From contig JAHBWR010000009.1 of the NCBI GenBank assembly GCA_019636875.1, positions 1 to 63,237 of the forward strand: a stretch of DNA of 63,237 nt. Direction: 5' to 3'. The notes under the pieces are model-generated. The model searched no databases and was not told where the DNA came from. It was given only the letters and a program-made list of their open reading frames with translations. Each line of letters opens with the position of its first letter. The first letter of the stretch is position 1. Shown piece by piece: positions 12,652 through 50,297 of the stretch. This DNA comes from Nitrospira sp. GTDB taxonomy: Bacteria > Nitrospirota > Nitrospiria > Nitrospirales > Nitrospiraceae. Made by a program: the position numbers and the translations under genes.

Positions 12652-12654
12652 CTC

Positions 12655-14776: not shown

Positions 14777-15439
14777 ATGATGTTGCAGAAGCAAGGTGCA
14801 GCCATTCTTGCAGCCGTCGCGCTGCTACTCGGTATGGCTTCGACGGCTCCGGCGATCGAATCATTTCAGGAACGGTTTGAGTGGGGCGATATGAGCAAGC
14901 CGACCACTATCCAAGGTCGGGTCATCGTGTTGGACCCCTATGAAGAAGCAGTCTGGATCAACGTTGCCGTCTACGGCGGTAATGCCGAGAGCGGCTTGTT
15001 TTGGCAAAAAGTTCACCCAGGGAAAACGCTAAAGTTTTATGCTGAAAAATCTGCCTGGCAGGAACTCAAGAAGATGGGGCGACCCCATGCGGGACCGGCA
15101 GCAGCCAAAGAAGTGCCTCCTGGTAGCACCACGGATTTGATCGAATTCGTTGCCGTAGAAAGTGATCAGAACCATCGTGTCATCTCGTCGGTGAAAAAGA
15201 TTCCCGAGGTGTCCGGGACAATGGGCAAGCCGCTAAGTATCACGGGCCTTCGATTTAAAGAATGTGCGGGGAAGAACGAGTTTGACGCAACGTGTTCAAA
15301 GGCTAAAACAACTCTCAATGAATCTCCGGTCTCACCGGATGGGAGCAACGTCGGTATGCAATATGATGTCATGCTTCCTGGTGGGAAAACAGTTGGTGGA
15401 TTGATTCCTTGGACTGCGTCCTATAATCAAGCCCACTAA
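14777..15439 (+). CDS. Secreted protein of unknown function (220 residues)
   Basis: I do not recognise the family. A signal peptide spans about residues 1-27 (ATG-ATG start, hydrophobic core LAAVALLLGMA, ending APAIES). The mature protein of about 190 residues looks mostly beta-rich, with GRVIVLDPYEEAVWINVAVYGG near the N terminus and two cysteines about a dozen residues apart (KECAG and DATCS) that could form a disulfide. The start at 14777 is chosen because TAAGGAGGGTGTGATC lies directly upstream; a longer in-frame extension back to 14540 overlaps the preceding gene and is rejected. It shares an operon with the secreted protein ending at 14735 and is closed by the terminator at 15459. Confidence 0.75.
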   Translation: MMLQKQGAAILAAVALLLGMASTAPAIESFQERFEWGDMSKPTTIQGRVIVLDPYEEAVWINVAVYGGNAESGLFWQKVHPGKTLKFYAEKSAWQELKKMGRPHAGPAAAKEVPPGSTTDLIEFVAVESDQNHRVISSVKKIPEVSGTMGKPLSITGLRFKECAGKNEFDATCSKAKTTLNESPVSPDGSNVGMQYDVMLPGGKTVGGLIPWTASYNQAH

Positions 15440-15458
15440 CCTATAGAACCAGATAGAT

Positions 15459-15502
15459 AAAAAGGCGGCCTCCCCCTTGTGAGGGGAGCCGCCTTTTTCT
15501 TT
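15459..15502. terminator. Bidirectional intrinsic terminator between convergent operons
   Basis: AAAAAGGCGGC plus CTCCCCC pairs with GGGGAG plus CCGCCTTTTT around a short loop at about 15478-15481. The long GC stem with T-run on both strands separates the plus-strand secreted-protein pair from the minus-strand mutS. Confidence 0.9.
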
Positions 15503-15524
15503 ATCTCATCAACGCGTCCAGTTC

Positions 15525-34743: not shown

Positions 34744-35532
34744 ATGCATGAGAGCCAGTCACTAATCTCGGCCTATTTCGTGGTCGGTCTTTTGGGGGCA
34801 CTCGTCGGCAGCTTTCTGAATGTCTGTATTTACCGATTGCCTCGACACGAATCCATCGCATGGCCAGGGTCCAATTGCCCGGCCTGTTCCCACCCTATTG
34901 CGTGGTATGACAACATCCCGGTCTTCAGCTACGTGCAACTCGGGGGGCGTTGCCGGCACTGTTCGGATGGCATTCCGTACCGCTACCCGGTGGTGGAGAC
35001 GCTGAATGCCCTGGGCTATATCGGGATCGTCTGGTTCTTTGGGATAACCTGGTCGGCGGCTGTGTACGGGGTACTATTTTCGGCGCTTTTGGTCGTTGCT
35101 GGAACGGACCTTTCCCATAAGATCATTCCGAATGCCATTACCTTCCCTGGGATTGTGGTTGGGCTCCTCAGCGCCGCGACGATCCTCCCGCTTGGATTCT
35201 ATGAGGGTGTACTGGGTATGCTCGTTGGTGGGGGTATCCTATGGCTCCTAGCCTGGGCAAGTCCGTATCTTTTCGGCAAAGAAGGGATGGGGGGGGGCGA
35301 CATCAAGCTCCTTGCGATGATCGGGGCCTTTCTTGGTTGGAAGCCAGCCTTGATGACCATCATGGTTGGTTCCTTCCTTGGGTCCCTGGTGGGAGTGGCT
35401 CTTATCGCGACAAAAGTGATACGTCGGGAAGACTATATTCCCTTCGGTCCCTTTCTCGTCTGTGGGGCTCTGGTCTCATTGTTCTTTGGTCAATCTCTCC
35501 TTGATTGGTATCAAGGCCTATTGGCTGGATAA
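34744..35532 (+). CDS. pilD: Prepilin peptidase / N-methyltransferase
   Basis: Protein of 262 residues, A24 family, with about seven to eight membrane helices. The cytoplasmic zinc-like loop has two CxxC pairs (NCPAC and CRHC, about 50-80) as in the bifunctional methylating type. The active-site aspartates are in GTDLSHKIIPN and GGGDIKLL. It cleaves the leader of type IV prepilins and methylates the new N terminus, acting on the pilins encoded downstream. It is the first gene of the pilus region. Confidence 0.95.
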   Translation: MHESQSLISAYFVVGLLGALVGSFLNVCIYRLPRHESIAWPGSNCPACSHPIAWYDNIPVFSYVQLGGRCRHCSDGIPYRYPVVETLNALGYIGIVWFFGITWSAAVYGVLFSALLVVAGTDLSHKIIPNAITFPGIVVGLLSAATILPLGFYEGVLGMLVGGGILWLLAWASPYLFGKEGMGGGDIKLLAMIGAFLGWKPALMTIMVGSFLGSLVGVALIATKVIRREDYIPFGPFLVCGALVSLFFGQSLLDWYQGLLAG

Positions 35533-35768
35533 TGGTTCCCATGGCCGATTCACAGCCAGTTAGGTGTATCTCTTTCGATAAGACCTGTATCTAATCGTGC
35601 AAGATATGGTTCCGACGTCACCTGCTCCTTCAATGAGCTGCTTCCCCGTCTCCTAAAGCATCACAATTTACCTAAAGCCACAATAAATCCATGCCTTATG
35701 GGAGCGTGGGCTGTTCGAAATAGTTCAGCCCACAACTAGGGAATGGCCAGTAGAAGAACGGCACGCAT
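35533..35768. other. Intergenic region upstream of the first minor-pilin set
   Basis: No gene seen. An inverted repeat, GTGGGCTG (35706-35713) and CAGCCCAC (35726-35733), forms a stem without a following T-run, so it is not a convincing terminator. Confidence 0.5.
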
Positions 35769-35790
35769 TTTGACATAGATATATGTCAAA
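35769..35790. promoter_or_regulatory. Perfect palindrome upstream of the minor-pilin operon (candidate operator)
   Basis: TTTGACATA (35769-35777), spacer GATA, TATGTCAAA (35782-35790): a perfect nine-base inverted repeat ending 29 bases before the first pilin start. A TTGACA lies within it, but no matching -10 follows at 16-18 bases. It looks like a dimeric-regulator binding site or an mRNA leader hairpin. Confidence 0.5.
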
Positions 35791-35819: not shown

Positions 35820-36251
35820 ATGAAGCAGGATGGAAAATCATTGGCGGAACTGATGGTGGTCGCGGGGATACTCGCCATGGTCTCGTTTCTAGCACTTCCC
35901 AACTACCTTGGACTCAATTCACGAACCCAACTTCGGTGTGTCACGGAAGAAATTGCCTCCGACCTGCGTCTCGCGAGGCAACTTGCCTTAACCAATCGAG
36001 ATCGAGTTCGAATTGTCATTGACGCAGAAAGCCAGCGGCTGGTCACACAGTTCGTCAACCAGAATTCCACTCATCACGCGTACCACTACGGGGGAAAGGG
36101 GCTCATCCTTGAAGAACCGAGTGCAGGGTGGGACATTCTGTTCCACCCAAGCGGTCGCTCAGCGACAGCAACGACAATCCAGCTTAGGAATAAGGAGGGC
36201 CAGACCCAAACACTCACGGTGAGTATGACCGGTCGGGTATCGATCTTATGA
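35820..36251 (+). CDS. Type IV minor pseudopilin, GspH/FimT-like (set A)
   Basis: Protein of 143 residues. The prepilin leader is MKQDG; cleavage after G5 leaves K-S-L-A-E with Glu at +5, then the hydrophobic helix LMVVAGILAMVSFLALPNY. The rest is a soluble GspH-type beta domain. It is probably part of the priming complex at the pilus tip. The first mature residue is Lys instead of the usual Phe, which is unusual. The stop overlaps the next gene (ATGA). First gene of a four-gene set with tight overlaps. Confidence 0.85.
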   Translation: MKQDGKSLAELMVVAGILAMVSFLALPNYLGLNSRTQLRCVTEEIASDLRLARQLALTNRDRVRIVIDAESQRLVTQFVNQNSTHHAYHYGGKGLILEEPSAGWDILFHPSGRSATATTIQLRNKEGQTQTLTVSMTGRVSIL

Positions 36252-36733
36252 GCAATCATCTTCAATGCGACGGTTTCAGCCTAATTGAAGTCATGGTGGC
36301 GATGATGATCTCGGGAATTGCGTTACTGGGGACACTGGGTGCAGTAGACATCACGTCGAGATACGTGCAGCAGGGTGGTCTCAGTAGCAAAGCGCTGGAG
36401 CTTGCACAAGGGAAACTCGAAGCGAAGCGATCCATTCGATGGTCATCTCTTATCGAGGATGATCTGGATTATGACGGTGTAGCTGATGCCACCATGGTGG
36501 ACGACGGCCAAGGGGCAGATATCAGCGCCGGCGACGGGATCTATACGGCCGGCTACGAACGCGATGGAATCACGCTGCTCTGGACCATTGAGATCGATCA
36601 TGAGAAGTCGCTCAACACCTCGGGAATCGTTGTCATCCGAGCGGTGGCTTCTTACGCCGACCGAAGAGGCCAACGACGAGAGGTGCAAGTGGCGACCCTC
36701 AGAGCGAATCCGAACTATGTGGGGCTGCGATGA
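36248..36733 (+). CDS. Type IV minor pilin, PilV-like (set A)
   Basis: Protein of 161 residues. The leader ends CDG, followed by F-S-L-I-E with Glu at +5 and a hydrophobic helix to about residue 33. The mature domain contains an Asp/Gly-rich segment (DDLDYDGVADATMVDDGQGAD, about 72-92) that looks like a calcium-binding loop. It overlaps both neighbours by four bases. PilV-like proteins are minor pilins, needed for pilus initiation and adhesion. Confidence 0.85.
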   Translation: MSNHLQCDGFSLIEVMVAMMISGIALLGTLGAVDITSRYVQQGGLSSKALELAQGKLEAKRSIRWSSLIEDDLDYDGVADATMVDDGQGADISAGDGIYTAGYERDGITLLWTIEIDHEKSLNTSGIVVIRAVASYADRRGQRREVQVATLRANPNYVGLR

Positions 36734-37488
36734 TCTGCAGGCATTCGGCTCATTCCTTTATGAGATGGCAGCCAGGAGCGCGCCGCCTATTCAATAGTGA
36801 CGGTGTCTGCATGAGTGAACTCATGATTAGTTTGGCGATCGGCTCGTTCGTGCTGGCAACGGCGTTAACCACCTTGAACATCGTCCAGACGCATGCCGGT
36901 AAGCAGCAACGCTCGCTGAATCAGCAGCAAGACTTACGACTCGGGCTCGAAGTATTTGAACAAGAGGTTAGACTCGCTACGGCCGAGACGATTGTGACGG
37001 CAGCCTCGGACCAATTTATGTTTTACGCCAATCTCAGTGACCATCGGACTGTCACGACGGCAGGGCTTAATCATGGGCAAACTGTGTTGCCGGTACTGGA
37101 CGGGAGTGGATGGGGAGAAGGTAAGACGCTCTCTGTGTGTGGGCAGCAGGGCTGCGAATCTCACCGGCTCGCCCGTGCGGGACAACGGTTTCACCTCACG
37201 CTCGTGGACCCGATTCAGTCATCATTTCCTGAAGGTGCATCCGTGCAAATCCGTAATCGAGTCGTCTACTACGTCAAGCGTCAGGAAGCCGGCCAGTCGA
37301 ATCTGATGCGAATGGTTGATGGCGGCGCGAGCGTTCTGATCGACGGACTCGACGATCTACGATTCTTATACAGGAATGACCTGGGGCAAAGCACGGCCCA
37401 GGCAGCACTTGTGAGGCGAGTCATCTTAGAAATCAATTCAGATCAACCCCTGCATCGAATGGTGCGGGAAGTCAGCATTCGATCCTAG
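36730..37488 (+). CDS. Type IV minor pilin, PilW-like (set A)
   Basis: Protein of 252 residues. It has an unusually long leader of about 24 residues ending NSDG, after which V-C-M-S-E gives Glu at +5 and the helix LMISLAIGSFVLATALTTL. A long coiled segment (QTHAGKQQRSLNQQQDLR) joins it to the beta-rich C-terminal domain. The PilW type is chosen for length and gene order (GspH, PilV, PilW, PilX). The Cys at +2 of the mature protein is unusual. Co-translated with the preceding gene. Confidence 0.8.
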   Translation: MICRHSAHSFMRWQPGARRLFNSDGVCMSELMISLAIGSFVLATALTTLNIVQTHAGKQQRSLNQQQDLRLGLEVFEQEVRLATAETIVTAASDQFMFYANLSDHRTVTTAGLNHGQTVLPVLDGSGWGEGKTLSVCGQQGCESHRLARAGQRFHLTLVDPIQSSFPEGASVQIRNRVVYYVKRQEAGQSNLMRMVDGGASVLIDGLDDLRFLYRNDLGQSTAQAALVRRVILEINSDQPLHRMVREVSIRS

Positions 37489-37501
37489 GAGGGTACCCAT
37501 T

Positions 37502-38971
37502 ATGTTCCGTAGAAACATCGGCAGTGACCAACAAGGGATTGCACTTCTGGGAGCCATGATGATCGTACTGGTCCTCTCAGTACTTGCGACGACACTCTTG
37601 AACTTGAGCGGACAGGAGGCTGTCAGTGCAAGCGCAGCCGGCCAATTGGCTATCGCCCAACAACTTGCCGACGCATCCGCCGAACTTGTGGTGGGGTGGT
37701 TTCATGAACCGTTGTCGACGAGTACGATCCCGGCGATCGTCGCATTGCGTACCAGGACTGGGCGTGACACGAACGGCGCACCCTCATTTTTTGATGCGAC
37801 TGGTCGCTCACAATTTTTGGGAACCGTGGACCGTCCAGATTTACATTTCCAGGCCAAGAATGATTCAGACAACCGACTACTGAACGATCGAAAATACGGA
37901 CTCTTTCGTGCCATGCAACACCTTGGGCACGTAGAGGAACTCAAAGTGTACGCTCCGACCGATCCAGGGTTGCTGTGTACCTTGGATACGACCGTTGCAA
38001 CCAATATAACCCCTTCTGTTCGGCAATCAGTCCGAATGCAGTTAAGCGCCTTGGGGCTGCCTGCATTGAAGACCGCGGTACAGGTTCACCGGAATCTAGG
38101 CCAGCCGCAACTCGGCGGGGAATCACCGGTCTCACTACATTGGGGTGATCTGAAGGTTGGCGGAAACCTGGTGCTCAAAACGTCCACAGATCTTCCAAGG
38201 AGAAGCGGAATTGCTCCACTCAGTGGCCAGGGCTATGAGGAGCTCGGTCAACGAGAAGATCGGTGGGTGGAGGCCTGGGTGGGAGGCGATGTCCAATTGA
38301 CTCAACCGCTTGTCCAGCCATTTACGGATGTACCCACCAACATTCATGTCGGTCAACATCCCGTTCCCGGAGTTCGCTTCGATGAATGGCCATACGAACA
38401 CCTGAAGCGAATGGCCAAACGGTTCGGTCGCTACTACGCCATCGATCGAGACGGTCTTCTCTATCCCCAAGGGATCGTGGAACCAGGCAAAGGGGTATCT
38501 CCGGATGTGGTCGTACGGTCCCAAGCTCCTGGAGATCAGTTGGGCCTGATCTTTGTCGATACCCTCGACCAGATGCCACCGCGGGCCGACAATCTTGGAG
38601 TGCTCAAGCTCAGGGCACCGTATATCGAAGGGACGGTAGTCATGCAGGGGCATATTGAACTGGCCCCCAGCGGGAGCGGTGCAGTGATTCCAGCACTGAG
38701 CCCCCCAACACTTGATCAAAGCAACTCGCTCGTGCGCACTCCAGTTCACCTCGCGGGTATCAACTTCAACGGAGTGCTACACGCCATCGGTACCATTACG
38801 CTCTCCGGAGGAGTTCGGCTCTATGGAGCGGCATTGGTAGGTGAAACAATTGCGCGATCAGATTCAGGCAGTTCGCTTGAGGTGTGGTACGACCACGATC
38901 TTGGAGAGGGTTTGTTTCGAGGGTTGCCGGTGGTCTATCGCGCTCCAGGTACCTGGATGGCACGCTTCTAA
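37502..38971 (+). CDS. PilX-like protein with very large C-terminal domain (set A)
   Basis: Protein of 489 residues. The N terminus (QQGIALLGAMMIVLVLSVLATTLLNLSGQEA, about 11-41; shown here in part) is a PilX-type pilin helix that lacks the Glu at +5, as in other PilX/GspK-like proteins. PilX proteins are usually 150-220 residues; here about 300 more follow, including regions rich in Gly and short strands near the C terminus (GVLHAIGTITLSGGVRLYGA) reminiscent of a right-handed beta-helix. The large domain may be an adhesin or tip cap. AGGAGGGTACCC precedes the ATG. It ends the first pilin set, 65 bases before the ATPase. Confidence 0.75.
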   Translation: MFRRNIGSDQQGIALLGAMMIVLVLSVLATTLLNLSGQEAVSASAAGQLAIAQQLADASAELVVGWFHEPLSTSTIPAIVALRTRTGRDTNGAPSFFDATGRSQFLGTVDRPDLHFQAKNDSDNRLLNDRKYGLFRAMQHLGHVEELKVYAPTDPGLLCTLDTTVATNITPSVRQSVRMQLSALGLPALKTAVQVHRNLGQPQLGGESPVSLHWGDLKVGGNLVLKTSTDLPRRSGIAPLSGQGYEELGQREDRWVEAWVGGDVQLTQPLVQPFTDVPTNIHVGQHPVPGVRFDEWPYEHLKRMAKRFGRYYAIDRDGLLYPQGIVEPGKGVSPDVVVRSQAPGDQLGLIFVDTLDQMPPRADNLGVLKLRAPYIEGTVVMQGHIELAPSGSGAVIPALSPPTLDQSNSLVRTPVHLAGINFNGVLHAIGTITLSGGVRLYGAALVGETIARSDSGSSLEVWYDHDLGEGLFRGLPVVYRAPGTWMARF

Positions 38972-39036
38972 GACCGACGTGAATGAGGATTCCGTAAAAG
39001 CAACTTCTTATTGGCGATGGAAAAGGATGAGCTAAA

Positions 39037-40863
39037 ATGATTGCACAAGAGCATGCGGTACGCCCAAGACGACCGATTCTATCAGGTGGAAGCCTGAAAA
39101 AACACACGATGGCAAAACAACCACGTAAGATGACGATGGAGCGCAGTCTCTTGGATTGCATCGCCTATCGAGGCTTGATGAGTCAAGCCGACTTGGATGT
39201 GGCCATAGAGGAATCATTATCACGTGAGATGGACCTCGAAACGATCCTGCTTGAAAAGTACCGGGTACCACGTGCCGCACTTGGGTCAGCACTCAGCGAG
39301 TTCTATCAGTGTCCCTATGTTCCGTACGATGAGCGGACCATTATTGACCCCGATCTCCTCAAGAATCTGAGTTTCGACTACCTGAGAAGAAATTCGTGGC
39401 TTCCCTTGAAGCGACAGGGAACGGTTCTGGATGTGGTCATCAATGATCCTCACGATTTGGAAAAGGGTCTTGATATCCGGCGTGCATTCCCGGGCATGAC
39501 CGTTCGCTTCTCGGTTGGGCTTCGGCGCGATATTGAGCAATACCTGCTTGTCGTCACAGGGCAGGCGAGTGGGGGGTCCATCACCGAGATTCTTGGGGAA
39601 CTTGTCGATGAAGCCGGTATTGAACGAAGTACGGAAGGAGAGCCAGGTGAAATCGATGAAAACGACTCGGCCATCGTACGTCTAGCCAATCAGATTATCG
39701 CGGAAGGGTACCGACTCGGTGTTTCAGATGTCCATATCGAACCCTATTCGGATCGCAAAGAAACCGCAGTTCGCTTTCGAGTCGACGGCACGTGTTTTAC
39801 CTACATGCGCATTCCCGCTGTCTATCGCCGGGCGATTGTCTCGCGTCTAAAAATCATGGCTAATTTGGACATCGCCGAACGTCGGAAGCCTCAGGATGGG
39901 AAAATCCGCTACAAGTTAGCCAAGGATCGCGAAATCGAATTGCGAGTCGCAACCTTGCCGACCGCCGGGAACAATGAGGATGTGGTGTTGCGGCTTCTGA
40001 CCGCCAAAGAAATCATGCCACTCGAGGCCATGGACTTTTCAGCGGAGACATTACAAACCGTCAAAGAGCTATCTGAACGTCCGTATGGAATCTTCCTGTG
40101 TGTTGGGCCGACAGGTTCTGGGAAAACGACCACCCTGCACGCTGTGATGAGACACATCAATACCGATGAGCGAAAAATATGGACGGCCGAGGACCCGATC
40201 GAAATCACCCAGGAGGGTTTGCGGCAGGTTCAGGTGCATCCCAAGATCGGGTTCACCTTTGCTTCGGCGATGCGCGCATTCCTCAGGGCCGACCCGGATG
40301 TCATCATGATTGGAGAGATGCGAGACAAAGAAACGGCCGATATCGCGATCGAGGCATCACTCACCGGGCATCTGGTCATGAGCACTTTACATACCAACAG
40401 CGCGGTGGAAACCGTCACCAGATTGCTGGATATGGGATGCGACTCCTTCAATTTCGCTGATGCGATGTTGGGCATCCTTGCCATGCGTCTCTGTAAGCGT
40501 ATCTGTCTCCATTGCAAGGAGAGCTATCACCCCACGCAACAGGAATACGATGAGCTGGTGCAAGGCTATGGAGCCCGGTATTGGGAAAAACTGAACGTGG
40601 CGTACACGGAAGACTTTACTCTTTCCCGCGGAAAAGGGTGTGACGCCTGTAATAATAGTGGGTTCAAGGGGCGCGTAGCCCTCCACGAACTTCTGGTAGC
40701 AACAGAAGACCTTAAGAACCTGATTCAGGGGCGAGCGCGAACTGCGGAGATTTTGAGCATGGCAATGCGTGACGGCATGGTGACCCTGCTACAAAATGGC
40801 ATTCAGAAAGTGCTGAGAGGCGTCACGACGTACCGGCAAGTACGGGCGGTCGCCGTAAAATAA
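39037..40863 (+). CDS. pilB: Type IV pilus / type II secretion assembly ATPase (PilB/GspE family)
   Basis: Protein of 608 residues. An N-terminal GspE_N/MshEN-like region (about 30-190) is followed by the motor domain: Walker A GPTGSGKTTT (about 356-365), the Asp box TAEDPIEI, Walker B VIMIGEMRDKETA and the His box LVMSTLHTNS. A C-terminal four-cysteine zinc site is made by CKRICLHC and CDACNNSG. It powers extension of the pilus built from the pilins on both sides. No pilC-like platform or pilT retraction ATPase is seen in this window, so those components must lie elsewhere. Assignment to PilB versus GspE rests on pilus context. Confidence 0.9.
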   Translation: MIAQEHAVRPRRPILSGGSLKKHTMAKQPRKMTMERSLLDCIAYRGLMSQADLDVAIEESLSREMDLETILLEKYRVPRAALGSALSEFYQCPYVPYDERTIIDPDLLKNLSFDYLRRNSWLPLKRQGTVLDVVINDPHDLEKGLDIRRAFPGMTVRFSVGLRRDIEQYLLVVTGQASGGSITEILGELVDEAGIERSTEGEPGEIDENDSAIVRLANQIIAEGYRLGVSDVHIEPYSDRKETAVRFRVDGTCFTYMRIPAVYRRAIVSRLKIMANLDIAERRKPQDGKIRYKLAKDREIELRVATLPTAGNNEDVVLRLLTAKEIMPLEAMDFSAETLQTVKELSERPYGIFLCVGPTGSGKTTTLHAVMRHINTDERKIWTAEDPIEITQEGLRQVQVHPKIGFTFASAMRAFLRADPDVIMIGEMRDKETADIAIEASLTGHLVMSTLHTNSAVETVTRLLDMGCDSFNFADAMLGILAMRLCKRICLHCKESYHPTQQEYDELVQGYGARYWEKLNVAYTEDFTLSRGKGCDACNNSGFKGRVALHELLVATEDLKNLIQGRARTAEILSMAMRDGMVTLLQNGIQKVLRGVTTYRQVRAVAVK

Positions 40864-40888
40864 TCTCATCAGCGATGAGCGAGTTCAG

Positions 40889-41248
40889 TTAGGGGGTTGT
40901 GTCCAGGACCAGCACAAAAGCCGACAATTGCCTTAATGCGTCCGATGACATCCGAATAAACTCGACTCCACATCGAGGTCCAGACACCCACCGGACACCG
41001 GCCAGCTCAATCTGAACCGGTATCTCTCCGTTCACGAGGTCAATATCAAGTGACACGTATGATCCTTTGCTGGGCAGGTGCTCAGCTGTGAGGGCGCATC
41101 CATGCGCTGAAAGATTCAAGATCGTTCCGTGGCACTTGCCCTCAGACATTCCAAACGTACAAGGAATCTGAACAGCATACCGTTGTGCCTTGCGAAACTC
41201 TCGTTTCATCAGGTCACTCGGCCTCAAGATAGATCGACATTCGTTCAT
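40889..41248 (-). CDS. PilZ-domain protein (candidate cyclic-di-GMP receptor)
   Basis: Protein of 119 residues, essentially one PilZ domain. The N-terminal R-x3-R-like motif (RKAQR) and the second motif NLSAHGC, matching the D/N-x-S-x2-G pattern, are present, so c-di-GMP binding is plausible. An in-frame ATG at 41209 is an equally likely start. It lies on the opposite strand between the pilus ATPase and the second pilin set, which suggests control of pilus assembly, though this is inferred from position only. Confidence 0.85.
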   Translation of the reverse strand: MNECRSILRPSDLMKREFRKAQRYAVQIPCTFGMSEGKCHGTILNLSAHGCALTAEHLPSKGSYVSLDIDLVNGEIPVQIELAGVRWVSGPRCGVEFIRMSSDALRQLSAFVLVLDTTP

Positions 41249-41515
41249 TCATTGAATAAGTGAAAATGCAGGTCGCGGCAATTCCTTCGGCGCTGCGAGG
41301 TGCCGGCACATTCCATCCAACAGACAGGGGATTACTCCGTACCAAACCGTACAGCCTCTGCGCCGAAATTTGTTGTTCCTGGGTACGAAAAATGGTCGAA
41401 ACGGACGACCAGAGCATTCGGATCACTGGATTTAAATCAATAGGTTACAGGAACGTGATTGCATTGGCAAAGAGGCATGTACCTTGCTCAACCCTAAGCC
41501 ATCATGAGGAAGAAC

Positions 41516-42061
41516 ATGCCAATTCTGAGCCCAGCCTCATCAAATGAGAGCGGGTTCACGCTTGTAGAAATCGCCATCGTTGGGGCAATCCTAAGTCTTG
41601 CCGCGGCGGTATCCGTCCCGAATTTTCTTCAGATGTACGCAAAGCATGAGCTATATCAAGCCACCACAAGCTTGTACAACAGACTGATCCTCGCCCGGTC
41701 CTCGGCGATTAGCCGAAATGCCATGTTCACGGCCACACCTGCCAGCGTACCTATGGGGCTCGACGTAGTGGTAGTTAGAGATGCAACGGCGGGGCTAGAA
41801 ATGGGGCGAGAAAACTTTCCGGAGAAAATTAGATTCATCACGGCACCACCTCCATCGACGCCGCCTCCGACGTTACCCCTACCAGCGTTGAGCTTCACTC
41901 CACGAGGCTTAAGTACGAATCCCAATCCGTTGGGGCAGACAATTCAATTGCAGAGCACACGAGATCCGAATTTGATCTATTCGATTTCGGTGATGCCATC
42001 GGGGAAGGTGACATGGTGTCGGCAAGCCATCAATCCCTGTCTCGTCAATGATCGGTCATGA
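41516..42061 (+). CDS. Type IV minor pseudopilin, GspH/FimT-like (set B)
   Basis: Protein of 181 residues. The leader ends NESG, followed by F-T-L-V-E with Glu at +5 and the helix IAIVGAILSLAAAVSVPNF. The mature domain contains a proline-rich stretch (APPPSTPPPTLPLP, about 115-128) not typical of the family. The ATG at 41516 is preferred over 41504 because GAGGAAG lies just before it. Counterpart of the gene at 35820, but the sequences are clearly different, so this is a second set and not a recent duplication. Confidence 0.85.
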   Translation: MPILSPASSNESGFTLVEIAIVGAILSLAAAVSVPNFLQMYAKHELYQATTSLYNRLILARSSAISRNAMFTATPASVPMGLDVVVVRDATAGLEMGRENFPEKIRFITAPPPSTPPPTLPLPALSFTPRGLSTNPNPLGQTIQLQSTRDPNLIYSISVMPSGKVTWCRQAINPCLVNDRS

Positions 42062-42077
42062 GTCAGAGGGTAAACAG

Positions 42078-42605
42078 ATGATGAAGCCACAGAATGAAAA
42101 GGGATTTACCTTGGCAGAGGTGATGATCTCTGCTGCGATTCTCGGTGTCGGAGTCATGGGGATGGCTGCCATGCAAGGCGTGTCGTTTTCAAAAAATGTC
42201 GACGCGAATGATTTGTCGATCGTCACAAATGTTACGGCAGATATGGTAGAGCGGATCCAAAGTAATAGGCGGTTCGCATGGGCGTACAACAATCTCGATA
42301 CAACGGGTCCTGGAAACTGCTTAGCAGGCGGAATTCCGGCCCCTGCCCCTCCACAGCCATTTATAGCGGCTCCCCCTGTGAGTGCCGCGACAAGGGCAAT
42401 CCAAGGCGATTGCGTTCAGTGGCGAACATTGGTCTTAGCTACCAACCTATTAAACGTTCGTGGAACTGTACAGGCTGCTCCGGTACTACCACTTAGCGCC
42501 GACTCCAAAGCTATCCAGCTAACGGTTCAGCTGCAGTGGAACGAACGAACGGGTGTCCAACGTCAACGGTCGGTAGCTTTTCGAACGGTGATCGAGCCGG
42601 AATAG
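42078..42605 (+). CDS. Type IV minor pilin, PilV-like (set B)
   Basis: Protein of 175 residues with leader ending NEKG, then F-T-L-A-E (Glu at +5) and the helix VMISAAILGVGVMGMAAMQG. The motif MVERIQSNRRFAWAYNN after the helix is typical of PilV. GAGGGTAAACAG precedes the ATG at 42078; an earlier ATG at 42048 overlaps the previous gene. The Cys pair in the mature domain (NCLAG, GDCVQW) may form the usual C-terminal disulfide loop. Confidence 0.87.
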   Translation: MMKPQNEKGFTLAEVMISAAILGVGVMGMAAMQGVSFSKNVDANDLSIVTNVTADMVERIQSNRRFAWAYNNLDTTGPGNCLAGGIPAPAPPQPFIAAPPVSAATRAIQGDCVQWRTLVLATNLLNVRGTVQAAPVLPLSADSKAIQLTVQLQWNERTGVQRQRSVAFRTVIEPE

Positions 42606-42647
42606 GGTGGATCACTGTGTGAACAAGGACTGTGTAGGGGGCTTCCC

Positions 42648-43877
42648 ATGAGACCTTCGCCGAAATCATACGGTCGGAACGAACAGGGCTTTACCCTGGT
42701 GGAAATCATGGTCGCGACGATGATGACTGCCGCCATCGTTGCGGCAGGGTTCGGTGCACTCGTCGTCAGTCAGAAGACGACGCGCATTACCGGACAGGTC
42801 AGTAGCACCCAAGCGACTGCCAGAAATGCCTTGGACATGATCACGGCTGATCTGAAACTGGCTGGGTTCGGGATGCGTGGGCTGACATCCACTGTAGGAG
42901 GGTGTCACATCAACGGCACTCCATATGCGCTCATACCAGGTGATAACAATCCGCTCGGGGCGGATACCGGGCCGGATACCATCTCGATGGTTGTGCCGAT
43001 GACCAATTCCATCACGGCAGTCGGACCGCTATGGCAAGTCTTTGTTCCAGGAGCCCCAGGGACCATCGGTGGCATGCAAACACCGATTTCGAATGTCCCC
43101 ATGCCGGCAAATGCTACCACGGCAATGGGCAATGCCATTCCTGGTGGTGGAGCTGCGTTACTCGGGATGCCGGTGTCAATTGGGGGAGTGGCTGGTTCGA
43201 CCATATCGGCCGTCAGTCCAGGAGCCTTGACATTGAACCCAGCCATTCCGACGCCTGCGGCTTTCGGGTCGGGAACACAGGTGTATCTGCTCCAATGCAT
43301 CACCTATCAAGTGATTCCACCTCCAGACAACCTCAATCTCTGTCAAGGGAATGCGCCCTGTCTTGTGCGTGGTGCTGTCCCTGCTGTGCTTGTCGGACCT
43401 GGTGGGCCACCAAACTGCAATCAGGTCAATTCAGGCTGCATCCCCATCATGGACGGAGTCGAGGACCTTCAACTGGCCTATGCGTGTGATGGCTGTGATC
43501 CACGCGTCAATAGTGGAACCCCAGACCTACAGCCGGATGACCTCAATCTGTCAAACAATTTTGACCAGGCTGACTTCATCACAGATCGAAATTGGTTCGG
43601 CACAGCAGGCCCCTATGGCTCGTTCATGACTCCGAGAACGATTCGGCTGGTGCAAGTGAATATTGTTGCGCGTCAGACGAACGCCGATCAGGGCATGGGA
43701 GAAATGCAATCGACACCCGTGCATGGCGGGAGGTTTCCAGTGATCAGCGATCACAACCATGCCACAGGGCTCTTCGCGGTGGGTGACACCGCGTCAGCAG
43801 CCCAACAGTCGGCCTATTTCCAGTTCCGTAGGCGAATTTTGACACGCACGATCGAACTCCGTAACCACAGGTTCTAA
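42648..43877 (+). CDS. Type IV minor pilin, PilW-like (set B)
   Basis: Protein of 409 residues, longer than most PilW proteins. The leader ends NEQG, then F-T-L-V-E and the helix IMVATMMTAAIVAAGFGALVV. A long Gly/Pro/Ala-rich middle (about 70-230, with MSM-like repeats such as GGPPN and PGAPGTIGG) is followed by a typical PilW C terminus (GVEDLQLAYACDGCDP). The set-A PilW has only 252 residues. It is two bases from the next open frame and clearly part of the set. Confidence 0.85.
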   Translation: MRPSPKSYGRNEQGFTLVEIMVATMMTAAIVAAGFGALVVSQKTTRITGQVSSTQATARNALDMITADLKLAGFGMRGLTSTVGGCHINGTPYALIPGDNNPLGADTGPDTISMVVPMTNSITAVGPLWQVFVPGAPGTIGGMQTPISNVPMPANATTAMGNAIPGGGAALLGMPVSIGGVAGSTISAVSPGALTLNPAIPTPAAFGSGTQVYLLQCITYQVIPPPDNLNLCQGNAPCLVRGAVPAVLVGPGGPPNCNQVNSGCIPIMDGVEDLQLAYACDGCDPRVNSGTPDLQPDDLNLSNNFDQADFITDRNWFGTAGPYGSFMTPRTIRLVQVNIVARQTNADQGMGEMQSTPVHGGRFPVISDHNHATGLFAVGDTASAAQQSAYFQFRRRILTRTIELRNHRF

Positions 43878-43903
43878 TCATGATCATTTCTCCGAGGGTT
43901 CTA

Positions 43904-44509
43904 ATGAAAAGTGAACTTGCCAGCGACGAACGAGGCACGTCCTTCATGACAGTCATGTTATTGATCCTCATCATCGGAGCTCTCGGGGTGGCTGCGCTCA
44001 CAATGACAGGTATGGAAAACTCCATGGCGGGAGCAATACGCATGGTCGAGGAAGGAACGGATGCGGCAGAAGCTTGTGTGGGGACGGCAGTCAGAGCGAT
44101 TCGTTTAACGATTGACGATCCTCAGATGACTGGGCCAGCGGCAGTCCTTCTTGCTCCGCAGGGACCGGTACCGGTTGGGAACCAGGCAGTGTTCACCCAG
44201 GAAATCAACGGCACGCTTCGGAACAATGGTGACGTTGCGGTTCAGGCTGACGGGAGGACTAAGCAGAACCCCAACCTTGAGATGAACGTCAACGGATACG
44301 CTGTGTACGGTGACATAGATTTTCTCTACTCCAAACGCCGAACCGGTAGCGATTTTGGCGATCAAGATCATCCGGCTTACGATCAATACTATCGAGTCGA
44401 CTGTGTTGCGGCCAATGCTGCCACTGGTGCGACCAGCCGTGTGATTGTGACCTTTGATTGCCTGAACACGACCGGTGAAGGATGCATGAAGCGAGGAGAT
44501 AACGGTTAA
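43904..44509 (+). CDS. PilX-like minor pilin (set B)
   Basis: Protein of 201 residues. The N-terminal helix (SFMTVMLLILIIGALGVAALTMTGMENSM, part shown) follows ERG at the expected cleavage site, and +5 is not Glu, consistent with PilX. The segment VEEGTDAAEACVGTAVRAIR after the helix is typical of PilX proteins. Normal length, in contrast with the 489-residue counterpart of set A. The ATG at 43904 is preceded by GAGGG; an ATG at 43880 is the alternative. Confidence 0.78.
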   Translation: MKSELASDERGTSFMTVMLLILIIGALGVAALTMTGMENSMAGAIRMVEEGTDAAEACVGTAVRAIRLTIDDPQMTGPAAVLLAPQGPVPVGNQAVFTQEINGTLRNNGDVAVQADGRTKQNPNLEMNVNGYAVYGDIDFLYSKRRTGSDFGDQDHPAYDQYYRVDCVAANAATGATSRVIVTFDCLNTTGEGCMKRGDNG

Positions 44510-44543
44510 GAGAGGATGGATGGATAGGAGGCGGTGTGGCGCT

Positions 44544-44897
44544 ATGAAAACAGCACCGATGCAGGGGAGGTCGTTCAGGGGCCGATACGAACTGAGGACC
44601 ATGTTGTTCTTCCTGCTCCTGGCCGGCGGGGCTACCCTGCCCCAAGGAAGTTGTGCCGAGGAACCGTTCCCTGCTGCGATGGCCAGCTACCCGACCGGTA
44701 CCATCACGGCGATCCATGAAACAACGTTTGAGATCAACGGACGAACCGTCAGCTTGGTGCCGGAAGCTGTGATCGTCGATCGCCATGGTGATGCAGTCGC
44801 ATTAACGGTCATTCGAGTCAATACCGACGTGAGATATCGCATTCAAAGAGGCACGACCGACAAGATCGACTGGATGTTGGTGATCTTACCCGAATAA
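44544..44897 (+). CDS. Small exported protein between PilX and PilY1
   Basis: Protein of about 117 residues. A hydrophobic segment around residues 20-35 (MLFFLLLAGGATLPQGSCAEE) looks like a signal peptide with a basic N region. The mature part, about 80 residues, is small and beta-rich (GTITAIHETTFEINGRTVSLVPEA, shortened here), similar in style to small OB- or SH3-like domains. I do not recognise a family. It is located between the set-B PilX and PilY1, where enterics and Pseudomonas have PilE- or FimU-like genes, so a pilus-related role is inferred. The start could also be at 44520. Confidence 0.6.
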   Translation: MKTAPMQGRSFRGRYELRTMLFFLLLAGGATLPQGSCAEEPFPAAMASYPTGTITAIHETTFEINGRTVSLVPEAVIVDRHGDAVALTVIRVNTDVRYRIQRGTTDKIDWMLVILPE

Positions 44898-44952
44898 GGG
44901 GCGACCAATGGGAAACAACAGATCACAGGCGAAAACTCCAACGGAGGGTGCG

Positions 44953-47900
44953 ATGAAACGCGGGAATCGTACAGTTTGTGGGACCGTCGCGTTTGCGTTG
45001 GCGGGAAGCCTTGTTTGTGCCGGGGCAGGACAGGCTCAGACAATGGATCAGTACTACGCGGTTCCGCCATTCGTGAGCGACCAGGTCGCCCCAAACATTA
45101 TCTTGGTGCTGGACAATTCCGGGAGCATGAGCGGCCTCGGGTGCGATCTAAATGGCGACGGAGACTGCTCCGATTCAGCAGATCTTGATTTCCTGAATAC
45201 GAAGAAGTGGTCTGGGTACTTCGACTCACTCACCTGTTATACCTATGACACGAGTGACAACCGGTTCGAGCCAACGACAGTCAGAGCGACATTGGACGCC
45301 GCCTGCAGTTCTACTCAATGGGATGGGAATTATCTCAACTGGGCCACCTTCCGCCGATTTGACGCGCTCAAGAAAGCGATGATTGGAGGAGACTGTGTCG
45401 TCGCGCGAGCCGCCGATGGCACTTGCCCAGCAACCGGAAGTCCCGCGCTCAAGACGGTACGAGCACAGGCCAATGGTGTGAATACCGAGTCGGCGGTGGC
45501 CACGTACAACGGAGGAACAGGGCCCAGTACCTATGCCGGAAGAATTCCAACAGCTGACACAAGTGGGACCCCAAACAGTCTGTATATACACACCTCCTCT
45601 GCCTATTTCTGTGTGGAAAACGATAACTCGTTCAATAGCAATTGTGGTGATAGCTATAGCGTACGGAAATACGAACTCAAAATCGGCTACACCATCGAAC
45701 CGACCGGAACGATCCAGCAAATCGGTGCGCAGGCTCGATTTGGACTATTTGAGTTCAAACCGACAGGGGATGGTGCTCGCATGTTGGTGGGGGTTGGATC
45801 TCGTCAATCTATCGATTTTAGTGGGAGCACAGTCGAAACTTTCAATACAAACACGGCTGCCATGATCGACGCCGTCCAAGAATCCTTTCCCTCAACCTGG
45901 ACACCCCTTTCCGAATCGCTGTATGAGACGACTCGCTACATCGCACAAATCAATTCCACCTATCTGTCGTCGTCCTATGTGTATCCGATTGCCTTTTCGG
46001 GTGGGAATTCAAACGGTGTAGCCTTTCAGGGAAGCGGAGTGGGCTCGATTGGTGGCTCAGAAATTACGGCGCTTACTGGGGCCGAGACGTGTCCTTCCGG
46101 GTACATCACCAATGCCTGCGGGCGAGATCCCTATTTCTTTGGTAGCAACCACACGCCCGCCTGGGCGACGACCTCAACCAAGGTAGCCTGCTGCAAGACG
46201 TTCGTCATTCTCGTGACGGATGGAGAGCCGACGCAAGACACCAATATCCCGGCCGGATTGCAGGACTATGCTCACGGCCAGCACGGTCTTCACTGTATCG
46301 GAGGTAGCTCAACGATCCATACACCGAATGGAACGTGTAACACAAATAGCGCAACGCCAGCAGCCACTCTTCTCGGTGAGCACAAGACTGATTATGGGAG
46401 CAGCGGGAACCATTATCTGGACGACGTCGCCTATTGGGCTCATACGAATGACCTTCGGCCCTGCAATGGCACGGCTGATGGACAGATCCCCGTCTTGAAT
46501 GTGACCGGGCATTGCCTCCCAGGCCTCCAAAATATCACGGTCTACACGTTCTTCGCTTTCGGGAATATCGCGGGTCGAGAGATCCTCATGCATGCCGCAC
46601 AGCTCGGAGGGTTTGAGGATACCAACGGCAATAACATTCCCGACCTGGTCTCCGAATGGGATAAGGTCATCAATGCCACCGGTGCGCCAGGCAGCGACGG
46701 AATTCCGGACAACTATTTTGAGTCGTCCAACGTCGATGATTTGCAAGACCGCCTGATGGCTACCATTACCGCGATTCTGAGGAAAAGCGCGTCGGGTACC
46801 TCCATTTCAGTCCTTGCGACGTCTGCCACTGGAGAAGGGTCGATCTATCAAGCCTATTTCTTTACGAGCGACGTAGGTCAAGGCGGAGCGAATGTGAAGT
46901 GGACCGGATATACCCACGCTCTGTTCGTCGATGGGTTCGGGAATTTCAGGGAAGATACGAATCAGGACGGAAAGCTGACCTACGACCAGGATCTGATCGT
47001 GACCACTCGGTATGACAATAATCCTACGAGTCCGACCTACAAGAAGGTCCTGGTCGATAAGTTTGCAGACATCAGTCCTGCTGATGGGGTAGCAGATAGT
47101 ACGACACCCACCTTCACCGGTGACCTCAAGTCGATCAAGCCTATTTGGGAAGCCGGCAAAGAGCTCGCGAACGTGACCTCAGCGTCTCGCAAGATCCTAA
47201 CCTGGGTCGATACCAATAACGACGGAATTGTAGGTCCGACCGAGCAAATTGACTTCAGTAGCACGAATTGCCTCCTGCTTCGTGACTACTTGCGGTATGC
47301 CTTGGACACGTGTGTGGGCAGCACCAACGCCACGAATTTGATCAACTTCATACGCGGTGATGAGATTGCCGGTTTGCGAACCCGAATGCTTGAAGTCCCC
47401 GTCGGTAGCGGGACCTACAAGGTCTGGAGGCTGGGAGATCCGATCCACTCGACACCGACAGTCGTGGGTGCTCCAAAAGCACGCTACGACTTGGCGTTCG
47501 GCGATCCAACCTACACAGCGTTTTACGCGAAATATCGAAACAGGCGTCAAGTCGTCTATGTGGGTGCGAATGACGGGATGCTCCATGCCTTCAACGGAGG
47601 CTATTATCATAAGGGCGATGATCCTTCCACGACCTCTGACGTGGAACATGGCTGGTACACCAAGAATCCCACAGACAACTCCAGCGGGGCCGCGCTTGGT
47701 TCGGAGCTCTGGTCATTCATTCCACAGGAATTGTTGCCTCATCTTCAGTGGCTTGCCAGGGCGGACTACACGCACGTGTACTATGTCGATCTGAAACCGA
47801 CGATCGCTGAAGCGAGAATCTTCACACCCGATGCGGATCATCCTGGAGGCTGGGGAACTATCTTAATCGGTGGGTTCCGGATGGGCGGCAGTTGTGGAAA

Positions 47901-49284
47901 TTGTGCTGCTGGTTCGGGAGCACCACCGATGACGGTTACGATCGGAGGAGTTTCTCGGACGTTCTACAGTGCCTACTTTGCCTTGGATATTACCAACCCA
48001 GAGGTGGATCCAAAGTTGCTGTGGGTCTTTAGCGACAGCGGACTTGGGCTCACCACCAGCTATCCAGCTGTTGCTCGCATGAATCCCAAGACGGATAGCC
48101 CCATCGATCCGACCAATGAGAAGTGGTACGCCTTATTTGGGTCGGGACCGAACGGGTATAAGGCCGATCTCACTGCGGTGTCAGCCCAGACTGCAAAACT
48201 TTATACCGTAGATCTGAAAAACGGACCAAAGTTATCCGCGGGTGGGAGTTTAACGACGATGCCTATCGGCACCTGGCAATCCTTCATGGGGCATATTGTC
48301 GCGGTCGATAAGGATTCAGACTGGAGGACCGACGTAGCGTACTCGGTACGAACGATCCACGATGGGGCTCTCCCGTGGAGAGGGAAACTCTATCGACTTA
48401 CCATGGGCTGTCCAACTGCACCCTGTGATCCGAATACGTGGGGCATCAATAACGGAGGAACTCGGACTCCGACGGAAGTGATCGATACGTTCTACGACGC
48501 GGCTAGCGGAACAACAATAGAAGTCGGTCCCTCTGCGTCCGCTCCAACTGTGACCCTAGACGATACCGAGAAAATGTGGGTCTTTTTTGGAACAGGTCGC
48601 TACTTCAGCAATGCAGATAAGGTGGATAATACCCTTCAACGGCTCTTTGGGATCAAAGATTCTGTCATGAGCAATACCTGTACTCAAACCTCGACGACGA
48701 ATTGCCAGGACGATGATCTCGTGGATGTCACCAACGCGGTGATTTGCATCGTCTGTAGCGGCAGCACCAATCAGGTGACCGATCCGACGAATCCTGGTGT
48801 CACCAGCTTCAATGGCACTGGCACCACATCGATGATCGGCCTGGTTGCCTCGAAGGATGGCTGGCGTGTGACAATGCCGGGGACGGTCAACATCACCGAT
48901 CCTGTGACACTTGTGACCACGAATTATTCAGCTGAACGTTCCGTGGTCAATCCGACTTTGGTGGCCGGAACCGTCTTCTTCCCGACATTCGCTCCCGCGA
49001 ACGATTTCTGTGCCTCGGACGGGGCAAGCTATCTCTATGCACTCTTCTATAAAACGGGAACGGCGTCGACGGCTCCCGTCATTGGGACAACGACATCCGG
49101 CAGCAATACAAACGTGAACGCCAAGACTTCGTTAGGAACTGGATTGGCATCCAGCGGAACGATCCATTGCGGTCAAGGGTGTAGCTACAACGTGCAGATG
49201 TCTACCGGCGCCTTTACACAGGGCGATGTGAAACTGGAAGGCAATTACAGCCGCTATGTGAGCTGGGTACACCAGCGGGATTAG
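44953..49284 (+). CDS. pilY1: PilY1-like pilus tip adhesin with von Willebrand A domain
   Basis: Protein of 1443 residues with a signal peptide (about 1-29). A VWA domain begins near residue 48, with the MIDAS motif D54-N-S56-G-S58. Directly after it comes an Asp-rich insertion (DLNGDGDCSD, residues 65-74). Two more EF-hand-like loops are seen at D668 (DTNQDGKLTYDQD) and D753 (DTNNDGIVGPTE). The C-terminal half is the PilC/PilY1 propeller (VVYVGANDGMLHAFNGG, MWVFFGTGRYF). It is thought to cap the pilus, help assembly, and bind calcium and surfaces. GGAGGGTGCG precedes the ATG at 44953. The many Cys are presumably disulfide-bonded. Confidence 0.92.
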   Translation: MKRGNRTVCGTVAFALAGSLVCAGAGQAQTMDQYYAVPPFVSDQVAPNIILVLDNSGSMSGLGCDLNGDGDCSDSADLDFLNTKKWSGYFDSLTCYTYDTSDNRFEPTTVRATLDAACSSTQWDGNYLNWATFRRFDALKKAMIGGDCVVARAADGTCPATGSPALKTVRAQANGVNTESAVATYNGGTGPSTYAGRIPTADTSGTPNSLYIHTSSAYFCVENDNSFNSNCGDSYSVRKYELKIGYTIEPTGTIQQIGAQARFGLFEFKPTGDGARMLVGVGSRQSIDFSGSTVETFNTNTAAMIDAVQESFPSTWTPLSESLYETTRYIAQINSTYLSSSYVYPIAFSGGNSNGVAFQGSGVGSIGGSEITALTGAETCPSGYITNACGRDPYFFGSNHTPAWATTSTKVACCKTFVILVTDGEPTQDTNIPAGLQDYAHGQHGLHCIGGSSTIHTPNGTCNTNSATPAATLLGEHKTDYGSSGNHYLDDVAYWAHTNDLRPCNGTADGQIPVLNVTGHCLPGLQNITVYTFFAFGNIAGREILMHAAQLGGFEDTNGNNIPDLVSEWDKVINATGAPGSDGIPDNYFESSNVDDLQDRLMATITAILRKSASGTSISVLATSATGEGSIYQAYFFTSDVGQGGANVKWTGYTHALFVDGFGNFREDTNQDGKLTYDQDLIVTTRYDNNPTSPTYKKVLVDKFADISPADGVADSTTPTFTGDLKSIKPIWEAGKELANVTSASRKILTWVDTNNDGIVGPTEQIDFSSTNCLLLRDYLRYALDTCVGSTNATNLINFIRGDEIAGLRTRMLEVPVGSGTYKVWRLGDPIHSTPTVVGAPKARYDLAFGDPTYTAFYAKYRNRRQVVYVGANDGMLHAFNGGYYHKGDDPSTTSDVEHGWYTKNPTDNSSGAALGSELWSFIPQELLPHLQWLARADYTHVYYVDLKPTIAEARIFTPDADHPGGWGTILIGGFRMGGSCGNCAAGSGAPPMTVTIGGVSRTFYSAYFALDITNPEVDPKLLWVFSDSGLGLTTSYPAVARMNPKTDSPIDPTNEKWYALFGSGPNGYKADLTAVSAQTAKLYTVDLKNGPKLSAGGSLTTMPIGTWQSFMGHIVAVDKDSDWRTDVAYSVRTIHDGALPWRGKLYRLTMGCPTAPCDPNTWGINNGGTRTPTEVIDTFYDAASGTTIEVGPSASAPTVTLDDTEKMWVFFGTGRYFSNADKVDNTLQRLFGIKDSVMSNTCTQTSTTNCQDDDLVDVTNAVICIVCSGSTNQVTDPTNPGVTSFNGTGTTSMIGLVASKDGWRVTMPGTVNITDPVTLVTTNYSAERSVVNPTLVAGTVFFPTFAPANDFCASDGASYLYALFYKTGTASTAPVIGTTTSGSNTNVNAKTSLGTGLASSGTIHCGQGCSYNVQMSTGAFTQGDVKLEGNYSRYVSWVHQRD

Positions 49285-49325: not shown

Positions 49326-50297
49326 ATGAGGAACCGTAAAGGCGATGTCTTTAAAGTCTGGTTGCCGCTACTGGGGGTTACCCTCTGTTTCGCCTGTACT
49401 GACGGGGAGGTGACCGAAGGGACTGCTCCGGTCTCCCGGTCTTCAAGTAATCGACCGCCGGTTGTCACCACTGCGGTGATTGTGAATACGCCGCTTTCTC
49501 AATCAACCCCCGCTGCCGTGCAGATTCAGTCTGAGGATCCTGAGCGGGAAGCCGTCTCCTTTCACTATCAATGGTATGTGGATCATACGCCAATTGCTGG
49601 CCAAACGAGTGCAACGTTGCCGCCTGAGTTTTTTAGACGAGGGCAAACGGTGTTTGTAGAGATCATACCAACGGACGGCACGAGCAAAGGGCAACCGTAT
49701 CGAACGGCAGGCGTTGTCGTCGGAAATACTTCACCGAGAATAACGGCAGTTTCACTTGTGCCCCAGACCGCCCGAGTCGGCGATAAGATAGAAGCACGAG
49801 TGGAGGCGAGTGATCCGGAGCATGACCGTGTCGATCTCATCTATAAATGGTATCGCAATGACACGCTGATCAAGGAGGGGGAAGACCCCTTTCTCGATAC
49901 AGTCGGATTTTCCTCTCCCGACCAGGTTGCGGTTGAAGTAACGGCCAGTGACCCTACCGGCTCGGCAAGTTCCTTGAAGTCTGAATCTATTGCCTTAGGG
50001 AACAGTGGTCCAATGATCGTCTCAACCCCTCCGACCAAGGCCGTCCAAGAGCGTTTTGACTACTCGGTGAAAGCGCTCGATCCAGACGGGGATCCGTTAA
50101 CCTATCACTTGGAGATGGCTCCCCCCGGTATGACGATTAGTTCAGACACTGGTCATATCGGGTGGCAGATCCCAACGGATCAAGAGGGAACCTTTCATGT
50201 CAGAGTTGTTGCGAAAGACGGACGTGGAGGTCTCGCAACACAGGAATTCGACGTGACGCTCTCTGCGACAACTACACCTGCCCCCCGCGGAGCCTAA
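49326..50297 (+). CDS. Exported protein with cadherin/Ig-like repeats, linked to PilY1
   Basis: Protein of 323 residues. A hydrophobic N-terminal signal ends at LCFAC, a possible but imperfect lipobox with Cys24. Three repeats of about 90 residues follow: about 45-130, 135-225 and 235-318. The repeats carry DP(E)-x-(D/E) signatures such as SEDPEREAVSFHYQWYVD and ASDPEHDRVDLIYKWYRND (each cut), and the last looks like a He_PIG/dystroglycan cadherin-like domain (ALDPDGDPLTYHL). Such domains often bind calcium. It follows PilY1 by 41 bases and may be an accessory surface protein of the pilus; no characterised homologue is recognised. Confidence 0.7.
   Translation: MRNRKGDVFKVWLPLLGVTLCFACTDGEVTEGTAPVSRSSSNRPPVVTTAVIVNTPLSQSTPAAVQIQSEDPEREAVSFHYQWYVDHTPIAGQTSATLPPEFFRRGQTVFVEIIPTDGTSKGQPYRTAGVVVGNTSPRITAVSLVPQTARVGDKIEARVEASDPEHDRVDLIYKWYRNDTLIKEGEDPFLDTVGFSSPDQVAVEVTASDPTGSASSLKSESIALGNSGPMIVSTPPTKAVQERFDYSVKALDPDGDPLTYHLEMAPPGMTISSDTGHIGWQIPTDQEGTFHVRVVAKDGRGGLATQEFDVTLSATTTPAPRGA

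Follow-up and report, generated by a model that had tools for sequence, protein, structure and literature searches.

Two adjoining minor-pilin sets with different evolutionary histories in Nitrospira, one with a predicted ComZ-like pilin and one with PilY1

The genus Nitrospira comprises major nitrite oxidisers as well as complete ammonia oxidisers, which live in biofilms and flocs. In a genome of Nitrospira sp. we analysed a locus with two sets of four minor-pilin genes each, here named set A (A1 to A4) and set B (B1 to B4), which lie on either side of a gene for a PilB-like ATPase. The window, i.e. the whole stretch of DNA that was analysed, comprises 63 kb (contig C189) of a metagenome-assembled genome (MAG) of 3.55 Mb that is 84% complete. 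The comparisons are limited by incomplete MAGs, and all protein models are single-chain models.

Gene content, conservation and promoter-like elements

Open reading frames (ORFs) were found at the positions given in the original prediction, and together with the family matches they agree with its claim of two four-gene sets of equal order that flank the ATPase (Table 1). It also held true that PilY1 follows set B only: set B corresponds to the pattern of four ordered minor pilins and then PilY1 with a beta-propeller domain, and in the loci examined set A has no PilY1 of its own, since PilB or B1 comes after A4. The predicted lengths of A4 and of the PilW-like proteins (252 and 409 residues) were correct, but B4 has 209 residues from its first ATG, the predicted 201 corresponding to a later start. 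The PilX-like assignments of A4 and B4 are based on position and on a prepilin-type cleavage site without Glu5, the PilX_N scores being weak (E 0.0022 for A4 and 0.24 for B4) and both below the curated cut-off. A profile match between A4 and B4, which is restricted to the N-terminal part, supports these assignments, and with them a cap-type pilin in the PilX/GspK position is present in both sets. The C-terminus of A1 is conserved (TVSxTGRVS). For the ATPase, similarity to one relative starts near the ATG at 39109.

Among 80 relatives the gene order is CysS-RlmB-(LuxR)-PilD-A1-A2-A3-A4-PilB-(PilZ)-B1-B2-B3-B4-small-PilY1-Ig-PhoH-YbeY. It is kept through the family, with PilD upstream of A1 in nearly all loci, and the exceptions are loci cut by a contig end or with a single gene missing or broken. 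Chance does not explain the eight-gene order, since almost every family member examined has it. Of 197 genomes of the order, 132 had A4 and 130 had B3. A search of named records with A4 yielded 80 loci, nearly all from Nitrospira or Nitrospiraceae/Nitrospirae and including N. moscoviensis, N. lenta and N. defluvii, and A4-like proteins, some of them partial matches only, occurred in 111 of a sample of 296 genomes of the phylum. Seven loci from other families of the class were inspected: in four of them the two sets certainly adjoin each other or lie close together, with either set first, and a fifth shows this with weaker assignments.

The ATPase between the sets, taken in the original prediction for part of one motor common to both, is present, but it is one of five PilB/GspE-type ATPases of the genome, and several relatives lack it at this locus. 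A4 runs straight into B1 in the sister family (f2) and in five genera (g3, g6, g10, g16 and g18). The ATPase is therefore lineage-specific and looks like a later insertion, not like an ancestral part of the arrangement. That it should be the dedicated motor of the two sets is weakened by the relatives that have both sets without it at this locus. Only some members of the window's genus have the PilZ gene at this site. In one relative (G092, locus L032, ~7328-16500), pilB, located between the sets, is interrupted after 260 codons; the ORFs beyond the interruption resemble those of a Mu-like transposable phage, as judged by eye, and set B follows on the same contig at a distance of 44 kb.

Each set is preceded by a -24/-12-like element. 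The canonical sigma-54 element of set B, GGYAY-N5-TTGC, occurs upstream of B1 in every locus of the family or its sister family that was examined and in all B classes described below. The element of set A, GGYAY-N5-TTG(A/G), equals it in the -24 half and in the spacing; upstream of A1, GGYAY-N5-TTG was detected in 71 of 73 loci compared to 0.6 expected from shuffles, and GGCAY-N5-TTGC in none of the 73. Three loci from another family of the class have TTGT at the -12 place. The set A element may be read by sigma-54. Due to the separate -24/-12 elements the sets are likely to be transcribed as separate units, also where they directly adjoin each other. An inverted repeat in the window, perfect over 9 bp and located upstream of A1, was considered as an operator and discarded, as it is not conserved in relatives.

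Table 1. Positions of genes and promoter-like elements at the two minor-pilin sets
Feature	Position	Strand	Evidence and remarks
PilD prepilin peptidase	34744..35532	+	PF06750/PF01478; left neighbour of set A
Set A -24/-12-like element GGCACGCATTTTGA	35760..35773	+	sigma-54-like, never C at -12 position
A1, GspH/FimT-like minor pilin, 143 aa	35820..36251	+	PF12019 E 3e-7
A2, PilV/GspI-like minor pilin, 161 aa	36248..36733	+	N_methyl 1.4e-7; choice-of-anchor X match
A3, PilW/GspJ-like minor pilin, 252 aa	36730..37488	+	profile match to B3
A4, ComZ-like pilin, 489 aa, PilX position	37502..38971	+	predicted pilin fold with inserted beta-solenoid
PilB/GspE-type ATPase between the sets	39037..40863	+	T2SSE 1.7e-117, MshEN
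PilZ-domain protein	40889..41248	-	PF07238 3.3e-15; left edge of exchanged block
Set B canonical sigma-54 promoter element GGCATGTACCTTGC	41474..41487	+	GGYAY-N5-TTGC
B1, GspH/FimU-like minor pilin	41504..42061 (start possibly 41516)	+	PF12019 1.2e-4
B2, PilV minor pilin	42048..42605	+	N_methyl; TIGR02523 1.1e-13, 51.9 bits vs cut-off 52.2
B3, PilW minor pilin, 409 aa	42648..43877	+	PF16074 (PilW) 3.3e-8; N_methyl
B4, PilX-like minor pilin	43880..44509	+	position, prepilin-type start without Glu5, weak PilX_N
Small secreted protein, PilY2-like by position	44520..44897	+	weak DUF5666 match
PilY1 tip adhesin	44908..49284	+	PF05567 E 1.3e-15
Immunoglobulin (Ig)-like (He_PIG) putative lipoprotein	49326..50297	+	PF05345 7.8e-12; right end of exchanged cassette
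PhoH, right housekeeping anchor outside cassette	50391..51458	+	

Different histories of set A and set B

Gene distances and trees strongly show that set A is inherited together with its housekeeping neighbours, and that set B, PilY1 and the Ig-like protein form a cassette of ~9 kb that is replaced as a unit. Within the genus, the pairwise distances of A1 to A4 correlate with those of PhoH and YbeY at 0.87-0.94, while B1 to B4 reach 0.25-0.32; for PhoH alone the values are 0.87-0.94 with set A and 0.25-0.26 with set B. The B proteins correlate among themselves (0.90-0.98), with PilY1 (0.88-0.91) and with the Ig-like protein (0.86-0.90), and the small secreted protein co-varies with set B and PilY1 (r 0.74-0.88). 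Beyond set B and PilY1, as named in the original prediction, the small secreted protein and the Ig-like protein share this history. Pairwise distance values are mutually dependent, and trees carry more weight than these correlations. In trees of 60 taxa, set A, PilD with PilB and the housekeeping genes had one history (topology distances 0.23-0.33, with 0.33 between set A and the housekeeping genes), whereas set B was at 0.70 from the housekeeping genes and at 0.37 from PilY1 with the Ig-like protein, and distances between A-side and B-side histories amounted to 0.61-0.70. A constraint of the B alignment to the A-side trees lowers the log-likelihood by 6,737-8,242 units, compared to 726 for the tree of PilY1 and the Ig-like protein. 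The concatenated sets A and B reject each other's tree in the approximately unbiased (AU) test, which was run with few replicates.

In locus pairs that were aligned at the DNA level the edges of the cassette are sharp. Loci L033 and L036 share 84% identity from RlmB to the end of PilZ; across the ~9 kb of the cassette only a 173-bp piece at the B1 start (70%) and two scraps in pilY1 (64%) could be aligned, and an identity of 84.5% returns 32 bp past the stop of the Ig-like gene, ahead of phoH. Between L030 and L033, identity switches just within B1 and returns just before phoH. At the threshold used, at least 17 divergent B classes were distinguished. Exchange occurs both ways, with a close set A and a distant set B in L030 and L037 (84% and 39%), and a distant set A and a close set B in L031 and L061 (50% and 82%). 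Likewise, L039 and L094, which belong to different genera (g1 and g7), share 39% in set A, 68% in set B and 76% in PilY1. The simplest account of these patterns would be allelic replacement via recombination in the conserved flanks.

Predicted fold of A4 and the genomic setting of possible DNA uptake

The AlphaFold2 model of A4, built with 57 aligned relatives, is confident, with a pLDDT (predicted local distance difference test) of 84.2 and a pTM (predicted template modelling score) of 0.79. It consists of a long N-terminal helix, three strands (residues 142-183), a beta-solenoid (~184-471) and a last strand (486-488), and the solenoid is thus predicted between the third and the last strand of the pilin domain, as in ComZ. 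ComZ of Thermus thermophilus, proposed as a DNA receptor at the pilus tip, is a pilin of GspK type whose solenoid, akin to ice-binding proteins, is inserted between the penultimate and the last strand; it binds DNA and PilA2, and comZ, pilA1, pilA2 and pilA3 mutants are impaired in competence while pili are kept (PMC6561018). In agreement with this plan, three Thermus ComZ chains occupied ranks 1-3 when the A4 model was searched with Foldseek (E 1.5e-7 for 6qvi to 1.4e-6), the next match being an ice-binding protein with E 0.04. In VIA-align, ComZ was the only high-scoring match that spans both pilin domain and solenoid (model residues 42-489, Z 9.9, 310 residues); the rmsd (root-mean-square deviation) of 13 is large and suggests a different angle between the domains. 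The A4 solenoid alone matched ice-binding solenoids with Z about 10-11, with FfIBP, named as the closest relative of the ComZ solenoid (PMC6561018), among the top matches. The order A1-A2-A3-A4 furthermore equals pilA1-pilA2-pilA3-comZ in Thermus (PMC8578077). The model of A2 has a GspI-type fold, closest to GspI/XcpV/EpsI and Thermus PilA2 (Z 7-7.8).

Residues 70-100 of A2 (window 36248-36733), which follow the helix, form a highly conserved Asp/Gly-rich loop (DDLDxDG...DDGxGxD...GDG). It resembles calcium-binding loops and is located near the site of a small subdomain in Thermus PilA2.

Genes for ComEA (C46), ComEC (C156) and DprA (C139) are present in the genome. Losses of set A and of ComEC tend to coincide in the family (123/2/4/7, Fisher p 8e-8, hand count). 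We did not take the distribution of ComEC and ComEA as proof of a role in competence, since the genomes without both are mostly small and have lost set B too.

Besides the locus, the genome contains parts of a type IVa pilus (T4aP), namely PilM and a PilQ-type secretin on C24, a PilC-type protein on C118 and PilT-family ATPases on C156, as well as a smaller cluster of secretin, pilin, E and F genes on C129. Some further genes are described here as single observations. Contig C151 (L019, 4306-7122 and 14632-17074) carries two copies of an HDOD-like gene adjacent to a PilT-family ATPase that has a long N-terminal extension (513-644 aa), and one of them lies beside a PilB-like ATPase. A PilB/GspE-type ATPase of 773 aa with ~200 extra N-terminal residues is located among unrelated genes on contig C178 (L020, 7560-9881). 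Contig C119 (L021, 6824-7618) encodes a pilin-like protein (264 aa) whose C-terminal half includes a long stretch rich in glycine; its gene neighbours two genes for short membrane proteins and one for a large sensor protein.

A probable division of function between two pilus tips

We regard it as probable, though by no means certain, that the locus serves one T4aP system with a fixed ComZ-like tip for DNA uptake, provided by set A, and an exchangeable PilY1 tip for adhesion, provided by set B. In this model the two sets would be separately transcribed and would share one fibre and one motor. A1 to A4 would build or prime a constant tip crowned by A4, a pilin in the GspK/PilX position with a ComZ-like beta-solenoid, and this tip probably captures DNA for uptake through ComEA, ComEC and DprA. 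The adhesive tip would consist of B1 to B4, PilY1 and the small protein, possibly also of the Ig-like protein, and would serve in surface attachment and twitching. The set B cassette would be exchanged between Nitrospira lineages by recombination in the conserved flanks, which may alter what the pilus sticks to and leave set A unchanged. The original prediction, which could see neither the ComZ-like fold of A4 nor the exchange of the set B cassette, had suggested two distinct tip sets, and they do differ in evolutionary behaviour, in the architecture of the tip protein and in their promoter-like elements.

Several findings weigh against a DNA-uptake tip built by set A. TM-scores between the A4 model and ComZ are low (0.21-0.24), probably due to the differing angle between the domains. 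No ComZ chain was found when the A4 profile (57 relatives) was compared with PDB sequences up to E 10. Because no relation was detected at the sequence level we term A4 ComZ-like and not ComZ, while a remote homology of the two may nevertheless exist. The model of A2 is no proof of a PilA2 identity, since its fit to PilA2 ties with that to GspI-type folds. A1 was considered as DNA receptor by the GRxR motif of FimT and rejected, since its conserved end is TGRVS without a terminal GRxR. ComEC and ComEA are also present in relatives without set A and are hence not specific. PilY1-type tips can also serve DNA uptake, as ComC forms the tip in Acinetobacter (PMC8578077). Finally, no report of transformation in any Nitrospira was found in the literature searched.

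Other arrangements of the eight minor pilins were weighed on the same evidence. They could, together with PilY1, form one composite tip or act in sequence in one fibre, with set A as structural or priming part, set B as adhesive crown and no special role in DNA uptake. Such a tip would fit the class-wide proximity of sets A and B, whichever comes first, and the usual absence of B from genomes without A. However, the wholesale replacement of set B without a matching change in set A (correlation 0.25-0.35) argues against a shared specific interface, and separate promoter elements and a cap-type pilin in each set also speak against it, so that we hold a composite tip to be rather unlikely. As proposed for Myxococcus, where three clusters of minor pilins and PilY1 operate on one machine (PMC7541494), both sets could instead be alternative adhesive tips of one T4aP, the A4 solenoid being an adhesin for a mineral, polymer or sugar that replaces PilY1. 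Many binding proteins contain solenoids, and the structural matches of A4 include tapirin adhesins (Z 5-7). ComZ is, however, clearly the best match and alone in spanning both domains, set A has the gene order of the Thermus DNA-uptake set, and A4 evolves like a core gene and unlike a variable adhesin. Two adhesive tips appear distinctly unlikely to us for these reasons.

The original prediction had also offered set A as a secretion-like pseudopilus, in line with which A1 has weak GspH/XpsH matches and the A2 model resembles GspI/XcpV. Grouping of set A with the pseudopilins of type II secretion systems (T2SS), along with a complete second secretion system elsewhere, had been named as what would overturn the idea of two tips. 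A T2SS-like cluster does exist on contig C153 and has its own G-H-I-J-K genes, but the C-terminal domains of set A match those of set B and not those of this system. In helix-trimmed C-terminal profiles, A1 and B1 matched at 96% and A3 and B3 at 92%, whereas set A domains against H, I, J and K of the genome's T2SS, each represented by a single sequence, gave 5% or less. No secretin, GspF, GspL or GspM was seen among the window ORFs around set A, the secretins and GspF/PilC-type genes of the genome being located on other contigs, and the A4 model has a solenoid before the last strand and not the helical insert of GspK. A pseudopilus is therefore very improbable.

The reading with a fixed DNA-uptake tip and an exchangeable adhesive tip has partial parallels in known systems. 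The PilA1-PilA2-PilA3-ComZ set of T. thermophilus (PMC6561018, PMC8578077) is similar in gene order, in a second protein of GspI type, in a large last pilin with a solenoid before the last strand and in the competence genes of the genome. It differs in that no sequence match is detectable and in that set A adjoins a PilY1 set in a nitrifier, in which DNA binding is only presumed. Clusters 1-3 of Myxococcus xanthus (PMC7541494; PMC13190605) also represent several FimU-PilV-PilW-PilX sets for one type IVa machine, as we suppose for Nitrospira, and some of their PilY1 lineages look horizontally acquired, which resembles set B. But the Myxococcus clusters are separate and have a PilY1 each, while the Nitrospira sets are adjacent, set A lacks PilY1, and the set with PilY1 is exchanged like an allele at one fixed position. 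For FimT3 of Xylella fastidiosa (PMC9956873) duplicate minor pilins are split between motility and DNA uptake, as may be the case in Nitrospira; in that species one FimT paralogue alone acts as DNA receptor, whereas the candidate here is the ComZ-like A4, A1 having no GRxR. GspH-I-J-K of type II secretion have their four minor subunits in the same order and with the same basic folds as set A, which differs from them by its unmatched C-terminal domains and by the solenoid that takes the place of the GspK helical insert.

An adhesive tip that is swapped as a cassette beside a fixed ComZ-like tip offers a testable case of function divided between pilus tips, and the predicted architecture of A4 extends the ComZ-like plan beyond Thermus. 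It is conceivable, although we regard it as doubtful, that transformation through the set A tip lets cells swap the set B tip, so that the pilus system would remodel its own adhesive end. For Nitrospira, the locus suggests a route of gene exchange in a genus for which the literature searched holds no account of one by transformation.

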